A stretch of 64,000 nt of DNA, from the NCBI RefSeq assembly GCF_014145325.1, contig NZ_JACHTF010000019.1, positions 1 to 64,000 of the forward strand. The letters run 5' to 3'. Under the pieces are notes generated by a model. It was not told the origin of the DNA, searched no databases, and saw only the letters and a list, made by a program, of their open reading frames with translations. Below are positions 13,950 through 32,582 of this stretch, one piece after another. The position numbers and the translations under genes were made by a program. Within the stretch, counting starts at the first letter, position 1. Every line of letters starts with the position of its first letter. This DNA is from Marilutibacter spongiae (GTDB lineage: Bacteria; Pseudomonadota; Gammaproteobacteria; Xanthomonadales; Xanthomonadaceae).

Positions 13950-16900
13950 CTACATATTCCGTCGATACTCCCCACCCACGTCATACAACGCGTGCGAGAT
14001 CTGCCCCAGGCTGTGGGTCTTCACCGCCTCCATGAGCGATTCAAACACATTCCGGCGCTCGCGGGCGGTGGCTTGGAGGTAGGAGAGTCCGTTGGTGGTC
14101 GGCCCCTCACCCCCGGCCCCTCTCCCGCCGGGAGAGGGGAGCAAGGCCGCGTTGCGGTTGGCCTGGAAGCCCGCGACGTTGTCGATCTGCTGGCCCTTCT
14201 CCCCTTCGGTCGAGCGGATCAGTTCGATCTCGGTGACGATGTCGCCGCCGTGGTCCTTGGGCAGGAAGGTGTTGACGCCGACCAGGGGCAGGCTGCCGTC
14301 GTGCTTCTTGTGCTCGTAGTAGAGGCTTTCTTCCTGGATCTTGCCGCGCTGGTACATGGTGTCCATGGCGCCCAGGACGCCGCCGCGCTCGCTGATGGCC
14401 TCGAACTCCTTGTAGACGGCCTCTTCGACGATGTCGGTGAGCTTGTCGACGATGAAGCTGCCTTGCCAGGGGTTCTCGCAGAAGTTCAGCCCCAGTTCTT
14501 TGTTGATGATCATCTGGATGGCCACGGCGCGGCGCACGGATTCCTCGGTGGGCGTGGTGATGGCCTCGTCGTAGGCGTTGGTGTGCAGGCTGTTGCAGTT
14601 GTCGAACAGGGCGTACAGGGCCTGCAGGGTGGTGCGGATGTCGTTGAACTGGATCTCCTGCGCGTGCAGTGAGCGGCCGCTGGTCTGGATGTGGTACTTC
14701 ATCATCTGGCTGCGGGCGCTGGCGCCGTAGCGCTCGCGCATGGCGCGGGCCCAGATGCGGCGGGCGACGCGGCCGATGACGGTGTATTCGGGGTCCATGC
14801 CGTTGGAGAAAAAGAACGACAGGTTGGGGGCGAAGTCGTCGATCTTCATCCCGCGCGCGAGGTAGTACTCGACGATGGTGAAACCGTTGCTCAGGGTGAA
14901 GGCAAGCTGGCTGATCGGGTTCGCGCCGGCCTCGGCGATGTGGTAGCCGGAGATCGACACGGAATAGAAATTCCGCACGCCCTTGTCGACGAAGTACTGC
15001 TGGATGTCGCCCATCATGCGCAGGGCGAACTCGGTGCTGAAGATGCAGGTGTTCTGGGCCTGGTCTTCCTTGAGGATGTCGGCCTGGACGGTGCCGCGCA
15101 CGGTCTTGAGGGTCTCGGCCTTGATGCGGGCGTAGGTCTCGGCATCGACGACCTGGTCGCCGGTGACGCCCAGCAGGCCCAGGCCGAGGCCGTCGTTGGT
15201 GTCGGGCAGGCTGCCGGAGTACTCGGGGCGCTTCTTGCCTTCGAAGAGCTTCTCGATGGTGTCGTGGGCGGCATCCCAGCGCGCCTGGTCCTCGCGCAGG
15301 TACTTCTCGACCTGCTGGTCGATGGCGGTGTTCATGAACATCGCCAGGATCATCGGCGCGGGGCCGTTGATGGTCATCGACACGCTGGTGGTCGGCGCGC
15401 ACAGGTCGAAGCCGGAGTACAGCTTCTTCATGTCGTCGAGCGTGGCGATGTTGACGCCGGAGTTGCCGATCTTGCCGTAGATGTCCGGACGCGGCGCCGG
15501 GTCCTCGCCGTAGAGGGTGACCGAGTCGAACGCGGTGGACAGGCGCGCGGCCGGCTGGCCGACGCTGAGGTAGTGGAAGCGGCGGTTGGTGCGCTCCGGG
15601 GTGCCCTCGCCCGCGAACATGCGGATGGGGTCCTCACCGGTGCGGCGGTAGGGGTAGACGCCGCCCGTGTACGGATAGGCGCCCGGCAGGTTTTCCTTCT
15701 GCAGGAAGGTCAGCAGCTCGCCCCAGGCCTTGTAGGTCGGCGCTGCGATCTTGGGCACCATCTGGTGGCTGAGCGACTCGCGGTAGTTCTCGACACGGAT
15801 GGTCTTGTCGCGGACCTTGTACTCGTTGACCTCGTCGGTGATCGACTTCAGCCGCGCCGGCCACTCGCGGAGCAGCTTGAGGGCTTCGGACGACAGCGAC
15901 TGCACCGCATCGTTGTAGCGCTGGCGCAGGGTCAGCAGGGTGGCGTCGGGTTTGGCCCCCTCTCCCTCCGGGAGAGGGTTGGGGTGAGGGTTCGCAGCAC
16001 CTGAAGGTACGACTGCGGCCGAACCCTCACCCCCGACCCGCACCCCGGCCCCCGCGCCTGCATGCGCGGGGGCGTTCGCGGGCTCGCCGCTGCGCGACTC
16101 GAAAGCCCCGCTCACCCCGTGGGGAGAGGGGAGCAGGTCTTCGGCATCGAACAGGTCCAGCGCCTTCGGCAGCTTGGCGTCTTCCAGCGCTTCCAGCGCC
16201 TGCCAGCAGGCCTGGGCGCGGTCGGCGATTTCGGCGGCGGTCTCGATCTGGCGGTTGATGGCGCGGCCCTGCTCGGCGATCTCGGCCAGGTAGCGCACGC
16301 GGCTGCCGGGGATCAGGACGGTGGCGCGCGGTTCCTTGAGCGAGGTGTCGATGTCGGGGGTGAAGTCACAGTGGGGCGACGCGAAGCCAGCACCCGCGCC
16401 CTGCTTTGCCTCGTCTCCCGATTCCCCATTCCCCATTCCCCGCTTCTTGAGCAGGCGACACAGGTTGGCGAACATCCAGCTGACGCCGGGGTCGTTGAAC
16501 TGGCTGGCGATGGTCGGGTAGACCGGCACGTCCTCGTCCTTCATGTCGAAGGCGACGCGGTTGCGCTTCCACTGCTTGCGGACGTCGCGCAGGGCGTCTT
16601 CGGCGCCGCGCTTGTCGAACTTGTTGAGCACGACCAGCTCGGCGAAATCGAGCATGTCGATCTTCTCCAGCTGGCTGGGCGCGCCGAAGTCGCTGGTCAT
16701 GACGTACATGGGGAAGTCGACCAGGTCGACGATCTCCGAGTCGCTCTGGCCGATGCCGGCGGTCTCGACGATCACCAGGTCGAAGCCCAGGCCCTTGAGG
16801 AAGGCGATGGAGTCCTTGAGCACGACGTTGGTCGCCGCGTGCTGGCGGCGCGTGGCCATGGAGCGCATGTACACGCGCGGGGAGCGCAGCGAGTTCATGC

Positions 16901-31346: not shown

Positions 31347-31445
31347 GCGAGCGATGACAGGGGCGATCCTTCGAGGGTCGCCCCTGAGACCGTTGCGGCG
31401 AAGCCACCACGCACGCCGGCCGCCTCGTGGGATGCGTCGCATCGT

Positions 31446-31660
31446 AGGGTGCAACAAGCGAAGCGCATTGCACCGTCTCGAGCCCAAGCCTGCAGGCCTC
31501 GTAGGATGGGTAGCGCGAAGCAAAACCCATCGCCTGCGAAGGTGTGGAAGAACGACGATGGGTATCGCCTGCGGCTCGACCCATCCTACGGCGTGGCTGC
31601 CCGAGCCAACGTACGCGCCCACACCCCGCTCAGCCCGCCAAACCGTCATCCCGGCATCGC
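31446..31660. repeat. Tandem composite repeat, unit 1 (215 bp)
   Basis: First of three tandem units at a period of 214-215 bp. Each has an AAGCGAAGCGCATTGCACC element, a GTAGGATGGGTAGCGCGAAG hairpin half, its mate in CGACCCATCCTACGG, and a spacer ending in CCGTCATCCCGGCATCGC. Nothing here looks coding. Confidence 0.85.
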
Positions 31661-31874
31661 AGGGTGCAATAAGCGAAGCGCATTGCACCGTCTCAAGCCC
31701 AAGCCTGCAGCCTCGTAGGATGGGTAGCGCGAAGCAAAATCCATCGCCTGCGGACGGGTGGAAGATCGATGATGGGTATCGCCTGCGGCTCGACCCATCC
31801 TACGGCGTGACTGCCCGAGCCAACGTACGCGCCCACACCCCGCTCAGCCCGCCAAACCGTCATCCCGGCATCGC
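31661..31874. repeat. Tandem composite repeat, unit 2 (214 bp)
   Basis: Nearly identical to unit 1, with scattered substitutions and one or two short gaps. Confidence 0.85.
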
Positions 31875-32094
31875 AGGGTGCAGTAAGCGAAGCGCATTGC
31901 ACCCTCGCAAGCGCGCAGCCTCGTAGGATGGGTAGCGCGAAGCAAAACCCATCGCCTGCGGACGGGTGGAAGATCGATGATGGGTATCGCCTGCGGCTCG
32001 ACCCATCCTACGGCGTCGTCGCATGATCCCGCGTACCGACCCAATCTCCGCCCATACCGCTCGAACCGTCATCCCAGCGCACGCTGGGATCCAG
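31875..32094. repeat. Tandem composite repeat, unit 3 (diverged end)
   Basis: Shares the first about 155 bp with units 1 and 2, then diverges and ends in a GTCATCCCAGCGCACGCTGG palindrome of the family seen at 24.6 and 45.9 kb. A reversed copy of the AAGCGAAGCG element follows at 32139-32166. Confidence 0.8.
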
Positions 32095-32165
32095 CTTTTC
32101 GCCTTGAAGGCGTGCTCCCGGGTTGGGCGAAATTCGATGGTGCAATGCGCTTCGCTTATTGCACC

Positions 32166-32339
32166 CTACGGCGTCTTGCCGGTCCGTCGAACCCGGTGGG
32201 GCGAGACGCGGCCGCTTGCGAGCCAACGGCTCGCGCCGCGCCGAGCGCCCGCAGTCTGCGACTGCGGGCCGGGAATCCCACGAATGGGCTCCGGCGCTAT
32301 TGAAGGCTCTGGAACCTTCCAGCGCCCTCGCTCAATCAT
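32166..32339 (-). CDS. Possible Arg-rich peptide in tRNA-linked repeat, 57 aa
   Basis: Starts at an ATG whose A is the last base of the duplicated tRNA 3' CCA. It begins MIERGRWKVPEPSIAPEP and continues with many Arg (ARRGASRW, SGRVSPHR). It shares most of its length with the ORF in the neighbouring repeat unit and differs at its end. No ribosome binding site is visible, so translation is doubtful. It is listed because E. coli tyrT repeats also hold a small basic ORF (tpr). Confidence 0.2.
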   Translation of the reverse strand: MIERGRWKVPEPSIAPEPIRGIPGPQSQTAGARRGASRWLASGRVSPHRVRRTGKTP

Positions 32340-32348
32340 GGCGGAAGC
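32195..32348 (-). repeat. 154-bp repeat downstream of tRNA-Ser, distal copy
   Basis: Differs from the proximal copy at only two of 154 positions. In the tRNA orientation each unit begins with tRNA-derived CCACCGCTTCCGCCA and then carries TGATTGAGCGAGGGCGC and two hairpins, one with stem GCCCGCAGTC/GACTGCGGGC (32247-32269) and one with stem GCGAGCC/GGCTCGC. Confidence 0.9.
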
Positions 32349-32493
32349 GGTGGGGCGAGACGCGGCCGCTTGCGAGCCACCGGCTCGCGCCGCGCCGAGC
32401 GCCCGCAGTCTGCGACTGCGGGCCGGGAATCCCACGAATGGGCTCCGGCGCTATTGAAGGCTCTGGAATCTTCCAGCGCCCTCGCTCAATCAT
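32332..32493 (-). CDS. Possible Arg-rich peptide in tRNA-linked repeat, 53 aa
   Basis: The ATG overlaps the CCA end of the tRNA itself (A is the last tRNA base). The sequence starts MIERGRWKIPEPSIAPEP and is basic towards the end (HRFRHD). Same reservations as for the sister ORF: no ribosome binding site, and the start would be cut off when the tRNA is matured by cleavage after CCA. Confidence 0.2.
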   Translation of the reverse strand: MIERGRWKIPEPSIAPEPIRGIPGPQSQTAGARRGASRWLASGRVSPHRFRHD

Positions 32494-32502
32494 GGCGGAA
32501 GC
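32349..32502 (-). repeat. 154-bp repeat downstream of tRNA-Ser, proximal copy
   Basis: Begins within the tRNA 3' end, so the first unit is continuous with the tRNA gene. The 16 bases at 32339-32354 (TGGCGGAAGCGGTGGG, plus strand) repeat the tRNA bases at 32493-32508 exactly. Confidence 0.9.
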
Positions 32503-32582
32503 GGTGGGATTCGAACCCACGAACGGTTTGACCCGTTGCCGGTTTTCAAGACCGGTGCCTTCAACCACTCGGCCACACTTCC
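32493..32582 (-). tRNA. tRNA-Ser (anticodon UGA)
   Basis: A 90-nt class II tRNA read on the minus strand. The acceptor arm GGAAGTG pairs with CGCTTCC, the anticodon loop CTTGAAA carries TGA (plus-strand bases 32546-32548), there is a long variable arm around CAACGGGTCAAACCGTT, a T-arm GTGGGTTCGAATCCCAC, discriminator G and an encoded CCA. It decodes UCA and related Ser codons. Immediately downstream are two 154-bp repeats that start with its own 3' end. Confidence 0.95.

Follow-up and report, generated by a model that had tools for sequence, protein, structure and literature searches.

A probable degenerate RtT-type array behind tRNA-Ser(UGA) of Marilutibacter spongiae and the cognate tRNA ends of RtT elements

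The only tRNA gene that ARAGORN finds in the window (the whole analysed stretch of Marilutibacter spongiae DNA, 64,000 nucleotides) is a minus-strand tRNA-Ser(UGA) gene, and two 154-bp units follow it in tandem. This array is probably a degenerate RtT-type locus that was reshaped by recombination between tRNA ends. The array itself is a worn, lineage-specific derivative, at present putative in any function, and its importance lies in having drawn attention to a family of tRNA-linked elements with a wider spread and a greater regularity than expected from the Rfam entry.

RtT is an RNA annotated at the E. coli tyrT/tyrV locus. What has been known of it for decades comes mainly from E. coli tyrT, and a role in the stringent response has been suggested, though its function is not settled. 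In the elements, a 5' arm complementary to the 3' strand of the tRNA acceptor and T-stem is followed by GGTTCGA, a structured core, and a copy of the 3' end of the preceding tRNA up to CCA. The elements that we read are located behind Tyr, Ser, Gln, and Glu tRNA genes, and this design, in which the element ends by copying the tRNA that precedes it, extends over several tRNA isotypes and many genera of the class.

Anatomy of the array

The features of the array are as follows.

32493..32582, minus strand: tRNA-Ser(UGA) gene with encoded CCA (ARAGORN, anticodon tga; Rfam tRNA, 62.3 bits)
32349..32502, minus strand: repeat unit adjoining the tRNA and overlapping the 3'-terminal 10 nt of its gene (register of the initial annotation)
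32195..32348, minus strand: second repeat unit, 152/154 identical to the tRNA-adjoining unit (same register)
32339..32354, minus strand: exact copy of the last 16 nt of tRNA-Ser(UGA) (from the sequence)
32194..32200, minus strand: CCCACCG, the start of a third, truncated tRNA 3' end and a probable deletion point (by comparison with the L. aestuarii locus)
32427..32435, minus strand: GTGGGATTC, 9 nt complementary to the 3' strand of the tRNA T-arm (copy in the second unit at 32273-32281)
32352..32429 (approximate), plus strand: REP-like palindromic repeat of the tRNA-adjoining unit (a dispersed family in the genus)
32198..32275 (approximate), plus strand: REP-like palindrome of the second unit (a dispersed family in the genus)
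32169..32200, minus strand: 32-nt remnant, 29/32 identical to the start of the L. aestuarii RtT-like core (query 401-432 against sister 326-357)

The initial annotation described a tRNA-Ser(UGA) followed by two 154-bp units, and both the ARAGORN call and the repeat search agree with it, the latter giving head-to-tail direct repeats of 154 nt at 32194-32347 and 32348-32501 with 99% identity. The units in its register indeed differ at two of the 154 positions only, 32226 (A/C) and 32315 (C/T). The 16-nt 3' end of the tRNA, CCCACCGCTTCCGCCA, recurs exactly 154 bp downstream at 16/16 nt, also as described; an exact 16-nt copy within 1 kb has a chance of about 1000/4^16 and is therefore unexpected. 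The second unit is followed by only the first 7 nt of the tRNA end, CCCACCG, not by a full copy.

In the orientation of the tRNA, each unit consists of the tRNA 3' end with TGATTGAGC, a small hairpin region, and a large palindrome, which reads GGGGCGAG...GGGCCGGG on the plus strand. The predicted RNA fold has a z of −4.0 for a single unit and −5.8 for both units joined. GC-rich hairpins, as initially described, are present, but the larger palindrome is part of a dispersed repeat of the genus and not specific to the unit: it has many further matches across congener genomes, and of 25 loci scanned for tRNA genes, 22 have none. The whole unit is found only in the window genome and in L. aestuarii among the seven genomes of the genus searched. 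The complete array is single in the window genome, where three further matches are partial.

The units share two features with RtT, namely the location directly 3' of a tRNA on the same strand and the copy of the 3' end of that tRNA. The conserved RtT core (GGTTCGAC, hairpins, and GAGTAATCC) is absent from them, and a 32-nt remnant of its start is found just beyond. Rfam gives no family for the unit between 30000 and 34000 of the window, where the matches are the tRNA itself and sub-threshold ones, and no match of RtT (RF00391) to the units at E ≤5. We also used a covariance model, R1, built from 39 aligned elements (alignment A1), in which an outer helix, P1, encloses five hairpins; with filters off, R1 gives at most 10.4 bits for the units, on the T-arm of the tRNA itself. 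The complementary run GTGGGATTC is a weak candidate for a remnant of an RtT 5' arm; a 9-nt run also arose in one of 110 shuffled controls. Elsewhere in the window, R1 has a weak match at 15922-16051 on the minus strand (19.5 bits, E 0.005 over 106 kb), which lies inside a 1696-aa open reading frame and is probably due to chance.

Beside the array, at 31439-32120, three copies of ~203 nt are spaced by 208-214 bp and contain a GGTGCAATAAGCGAAGCGCATTGCACC-type inverted repeat. They may represent another dispersed repeat family.

The tRNA-Tyr locus of the window genome carries an RtT element that is recognizable in structure, position, and cognate 3' end. Here, 36 nt (18 nt of the tRNA end and GAATTGAAGTGCGACAAT) are repeated 173 bp on. 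The Rfam RtT model matches over its full length (1-130) at 32.3 bits, under the gathering score of 45, with an E value of 0.004 when 11 kb were searched and of 9e-5 when 241 bases were. The R1 score is 92.3 bits, to be read with the presence of a close L. aestuarii counterpart (L191) in the R1 training set.

The same locus in L. aestuarii and other congeners

We compared the array with the locus of Lysobacter aestuarii JCM 31130 (G001), a sister species of the species of the window. There, a single unit lies behind tRNA-Ser(UGA); it is succeeded by a second tRNA 3' end, which is exact, and by a terminator-like hairpin, GGCGCCCCGCATGGGGCGTTTT. A third tRNA 3' end, again with TGATTGAGC, is located ~270 bp past the second, so that the unit is present as one full copy and one rearranged partial copy. 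As to whether the unit always stands behind tRNA-Ser, one junction in L. aestuarii is at the tRNA-Ser gene, whereas the other is ~430 bp further on. The exact junction of the tRNA end and TGATTGAGC occurs in one record, that of L. aestuarii, at two places, in a collection of 84,980 species that possibly leaves out the window genome. The RtT-like arrangement itself extends beyond tRNA-Ser to other tRNA types.

A multi-hairpin element, starting with GGGTTCGA and ending with GAATCC, lies between the hairpin and the third copy in L. aestuarii. Its matches in congeners are near tRNA-Ser(UGA), tRNA-Ser(CGA), and tRNA-Glu genes in 5 of 9 places, and one further match coincides with a contig end at which a tRNA-Ser end is found. 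R1 recognizes the L. aestuarii element at 1700-1835 (L006; 27.6 bits, E 5.8e-5 for 106 kb); the Rfam RtT model misses it, and the sole RF00391 match of this genome at E ≤1 is at tRNA-Tyr. Though not trained on them, R1 also detects elements at tRNA-Ser(UGA) in G003 (29.9 bits), G004 (25.4 and 22.4 bits, split over two contigs), G042 (53.7 bits), and weakly G151 (18.4 bits, E 0.01), as well as at tRNA-Glu in G003 and G004 and as two tandem copies at tRNA-Ser(CGA) in G002. The terminator-like hairpin is located directly behind tRNA-Ser(UGA) in G002 and behind the second tRNA-end copy in L. aestuarii.

Just past the second unit, the window retains 32 nt from the start of the L. aestuarii element, 29/32 (91%) of them identical. 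Several points count against the reading of the array as a degenerate RtT-type locus: the units do not score as RtT, the L. aestuarii element is weak, the remnant is short, the two loci can be aligned in another way at that place, and both genomes are drafts, the L. aestuarii contig ending ~320 bp beyond the array.

In another congener (L187, G004:C189:1-8300), ~7.9 kb separate tRNA-Ser(UGA) from a second occurrence of its 3' end, 15 nt long and with the usual terminator-like hairpin behind it. Judging from the sequence, this stretch is a probable island integrated at tRNA-Ser(UGA).

Cognate tRNA ends of RtT elements in the family and the class

The Rfam RtT model at E ≤0.01 matches in 42 of 247 family genomes (10 over the cut-off) and, in the class, in 81 of 369 genomes (23 over the cut-off) and 69 of 272 genera. 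Among 14 control genomes, only E. coli has a match. A weak match in G005 (E 0.26), with no tRNA beside it in the stretch inspected, was left out.

All 32 family elements that were read, of 55 matches listed, have a same-strand tRNA gene upstream. The tRNAs are Tyr, Ser(GGA), Ser(CGA), Ser(GCU), and Gln(UUG), and 31 of the 32 elements copy the 3' end of their own tRNA at 13/16 or better. For the class, the best 29 of a longer list were read; 25 have a same-strand upstream tRNA, 22 of these with a cognate end at 14/16 or better, and the four loci without a tRNA include two at contig edges. Taken together, the 57 Rfam-found elements with a tRNA have the cognate 16 nt exactly in 40 cases and at 14/16 or better in 52. 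The end of their own tRNA beats other ends of the same isotype in 53 of the 57, with two ties. The Rfam model includes a tRNA-Tyr-like end, so that it may favor intact ends among its matches. None of 120 elements with a tRNA matches the end of another isotype, among the ends in the set, at 14/16 or better.

The 5' arm also resembles the reverse complement of the tRNA end, with a mean of 13.9 for its own tRNA versus 9.4 for others. As a cognate mark it was rejected, being strictly best with its own tRNA in only 27 of 57 elements.

The similarity among cores follows the tRNA in part. The nearest neighbor from another genus is at the same tRNA for 60 of 95 elements (shuffled mean 22.7, maximum 35). 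Core similarity is 0.69 between different tRNAs of one isotype in one genome (17 pairs) versus 0.57 between the same tRNA in different genera (972 pairs). Both inheritance and spread or homogenization within genomes could give this pattern.

Covariance model and pairing of the outer helix

The A1 alignment shows strong covariation, with 198 cells changed on both sides of a pair, versus 64.8 in shuffled controls and 39-63 with slid partners. Helices 3, 4, and 6, three of the five hairpins inside P1, show covariation at every pair, and P1 has both-side changes in 6 of 10 pairs. R1 detects the four E. coli tyrT/tyrV copies at 89.6-95.1 bits, and at E ≤0.001 it matches in 92 of 247 family genomes and 30 of 54 genera. 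From the matches listed, 80 more were read, and 63 of them have a same-strand upstream tRNA. These weaker elements add the tRNA types Glu(CUC), Glu(UUC), and Ser(UGA); their cognate bases reach at least 14/16 in 27 and at least 13/16 in 31, the rest having a decayed end. Cognate copying is the rule for strong elements, not for weak ones.

The covariation of P1 should be treated separately from that of the inner hairpins. Pairing energies were compared for 113 distinct elements, five of which, with 13/16 ends, belong to neither of the following groups. Where the 3' copy is intact, P1 has −21.7 kcal/mol versus −17.5 kcal/mol with swapped partners and is within the best 10% of swaps in 36 of 73 elements. 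Where the copy is decayed, the values are −18.5 versus −16.5 kcal/mol, and only 6 of 35 elements are within the best 10%. Since decayed copies pair only a little better than swaps, P1 covariation was rejected as proof of a selected RNA helix. Both arms of P1 resemble the same tRNA sequence, suggesting that its covariation may be mostly due to common origin. The Rfam RtT structure itself pairs the 5' arm with the tRNA-end copy; on average, the arm pairs slightly better with the upstream tRNA end (−23.7 and −22.7) than with the copy. Such predicted pairing of the 5' arm, with either the copy or the upstream tRNA end, would suit a hypothetical processing or quality-control role.

Survey of tRNA-Ser(UGA) loci and of the tRNAs in the window genome

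Genes resembling tRNA-Ser(UGA) are present in 156 of the 247 family genomes, and 110 loci were read. A 16/16 or 15/16 copy of the own 3' end, starting 88-138 bp downstream, is found in the window genome, L. aestuarii, G042, and G151. One locus (L082) has a 13/16 match 557 bp from the tRNA, an apparent copy at another (L099) looks like an assembly artefact with N, and the remaining 104 loci have no copy at 13/16 or better within about 1 kb. In G003 (L080), a shorter tRNA-end copy stands just ahead of the terminator-like hairpin.

For the 46 tRNAs of the window genome, an exact 16-nt copy of the 3' end that is not itself part of a tRNA occurs within 700 bp only at Ser(UGA) and Tyr. The exact copy behind tRNA-Asp is due to a second tRNA-Asp gene that follows, and 12/16 matches at seven tRNAs were left uncounted.

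We also considered an extended terminator, in which an inverted copy of the tRNA 3' end lies past the hairpin, as in G002. The longest complementary runs exceed those of shuffled sequences at only a few of the 110 loci, and the idea is thus not general. The weak 9-nt run in the units of the window belongs to these few.

Origin of the array

A cognate 3'-end copy turns the tRNA end, the spacer, and the element into a direct repeat, and recombination between such ends can duplicate, delete, or shuffle the intervening DNA. This tendency of identical tRNA ends toward duplication and loss at the DNA level accounts for the array in the window. The common ancestor with L. aestuarii would already have had, at tRNA-Ser(UGA), an RtT-like element, a terminator-like hairpin, and an extra unit with the REP-like palindrome. 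In the lineage of the window, the palindrome-bearing unit would then have been duplicated, and deletions at short repeats (CCCACCG and GCC) would have removed the terminator-like hairpin as well as the RtT-like core except for ~32 nt. The order of these events is the one that we infer from the comparison; as the unit occurs in two species only, the order is not fixed. Presumably, the array is transcribed as a trailer of the tRNA and the units themselves now lack RtT function.

The initial comparison with E. coli tyrT and its rtT repeats pointed in the right direction, though the units themselves lack the RtT core. Its wording, an independent or ancient analogue, is better replaced by a degenerate relative at an RtT locus, given the element in the sister species, the remnant, and the RtT element at tRNA-Tyr.

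The array could also be a plain tandem duplication with its left edge inside the tRNA by chance, in which case the tRNA end would be a bystander and RtT irrelevant. The 99% identity of the units and their failure to score as any RNA family are compatible with such a duplication, and one that starts within the tRNA necessarily repeats the tRNA 3' end. Against this, the unit of L. aestuarii is single and yet closes with a copy of the tRNA end, behind which lie the terminator-like hairpin and the RtT-like element, and neither the remnant in the window nor the similar copies behind other tRNAs would be explained. We consider a plain duplication unlikely. That the array is the scar of an island or phage, with the tRNA 3' end as attachment core and the unit as a leftover between attL and attR, is rather improbable. 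Islands may use this site, judging from the ~7.9 kb between tRNA-Ser(UGA) and the 15-nt end copy in G004, but the copies in the window enclose no cargo or integrase gene, with only 138 bp from the tRNA to the copy. In addition, the junction was in no viral contig when one exact pattern was scanned, and cognate copies with one common structured core behind Tyr, Gln, Glu, and other Ser tRNAs are not predicted by a scar.

The initial annotation proposed that the units give a functional RtT-like small RNA cut at the CCA ends. The predicted hairpins are stable, Northern signals have been described for RtT RNAs in Actinobacillus (available passages of PMC4986893), and the family sX4, which spans tRNA-Ser(CGA) into an RtT element as described below, indicates that such trailers can be transcribed. 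The absence of the conserved core from the units stands against this proposal, as does the presence of the unit in two species only, the second of which has one full and one rearranged partial copy; it is the least probable of the readings weighed here. A degenerate RtT-type locus shaped by recombination remains the reading that we prefer.

Relation to known elements

The array and the RtT RNA of E. coli (RF00391; rttR) share the location directly behind a tRNA, repeats that end in a copy of the tRNA 3' end with CCA, and the tandem arrangement, and the sister-species locus carries a recognizable RtT-like element. They differ in that the window units lack the core, have a period of 154 bp instead of 178 bp, follow tRNA-Ser rather than tRNA-Tyr, and contain inserted REP-like palindromes.

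The Xanthomonas small RNA family sX4 (RF02223) likewise comprises a tRNA-Ser followed by a trailer. Membership of the window in sX4 was rejected: its score of 31.4-31.8 bits, against a gathering score of 70, is carried mainly by the tRNA itself. At a locus of another member of the bacterial family (L211), an sX4 match at 1360-1526 (205 bits) runs from before tRNA-Ser(CGA), across the trailer, and into an RtT element at 1501-1622, of which it covers the first 26 nt. From this overlap, sX4 appears to be a tRNA-Ser(CGA) precursor that extends into RtT, and the Xanthomonas family is thereby linked to RtT. The available part of PMC6337395 ascribes sX4 to Xanthomonas campestris pv. vesicatoria and mentions its expression.

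REP/BIME repeats are dispersed palindromes, and a core-only RtT model also finds dispersed copies (see below), but the RtT core differs from them in its several hairpins and its tRNA-linked form. Within the text available, PMC2965389 likens rtT to BIMEs in enterobacteria, with which the dispersed copies agree, and PMC12306157 lists E. coli rttR as REP-containing. Phage and island attachment sites share with RtT the direct repeat of a tRNA 3' end; they differ in that RtT has one kind of core behind several tRNA isotypes.

Judging from the accessible portions of the published reports, the wide spread of RtT is in itself not new. The two Actinobacillus RtT RNAs are located upstream of tRNA-Asn and tRNA-Lys genes according to the passages of PMC4986893 cited above, suggesting that RtT is not always downstream of a tRNA. 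Upregulation of RtT in Thioalkalivibrio at 10 degrees is stated in the available text of PMC8092127. A table row of PMC4606813 gives RttR as 97 ± 9% in the first column and unchanged in the other four, which, as far as this row goes, speaks against a strong regulatory role. The open-access literature, as far as its searchable text extends, gave no account of Ser, Gln, or Glu tRNAs followed by copies of their own 3' ends. The present comparison opens to test why tRNA ends are copied, whether the partner of the 5' arm is the tRNA end or its copy, and whether RtT acts as a regulator or was once a mobile element.

Copies of the core outside the T-loop

Among the 80 additional R1 matches read, 17 are listed without an upstream tRNA. 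L319, one of these, overlaps its tRNA, and L316 is beside a tRNA on the opposite strand. L254, L257, and L260 have tRNA-Ser-like ends, yet no tRNA gene lies within 700 bp. In L307 (G030) and L317 (G037), which belong to different genera, the core is located in the anticodon loop of a partial tRNA-Ser(UGA) copy as CTTGA-core-AAACCGG, with an intact tRNA-Ser gene downstream. In L327, a nearly complete tRNA-Ser copy holds the core in its T-loop, and an intact tRNA-Ser follows downstream. As read from the sequences, the T-loop and the anticodon loop are both 7-nt loops, and the core breaks each after its fifth base. The open-access literature that could be searched, in the parts available, contained no account of core copies in anticodon loops.

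We searched further with a core-only model (R2), the structure without the first hairpin. R2 matches at E ≤1e-4 are present in 54 of 247 genomes, and a single genome has as many as 11. Sixteen such places were read, of 30 loci chosen mostly among those not already identified as RtT elements; 13 of the 16 have no tRNA within 700 bp. The RtT core is thus also a dispersed repeat. Three of the 16 (L349, L351, and L359) have candidate inverted flanks of 12-13 bp around the core.

As a tentative reading, somewhat short of an even chance in our judgment, the RtT core could be a mobile element that enters the loops of DNA hairpins, RtT RNA being a transcribed remnant and the cognate CCA a mark of the target. 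The T-arms and anticodon arms of tRNAs would then be natural targets, with TTCGA-core-AT and, in two genera, CTTGA-core-AA as the resulting junctions, and some copies elsewhere in genomes would lie inside other inverted repeats. The persistence of the core at tRNAs would be explained by the intact tRNA gene kept beside the interrupted copy, and the RtT RNA remnants may sometimes have been domesticated.

In L325 (G143:C236), the core directly adjoins a palindrome, GCTTGCGAACCATTGGTTCGCGC, that resembles part of the REP-like palindrome of the window. From its sequence, this locus is possibly a mosaic of the RtT core and REP-like repeat families.
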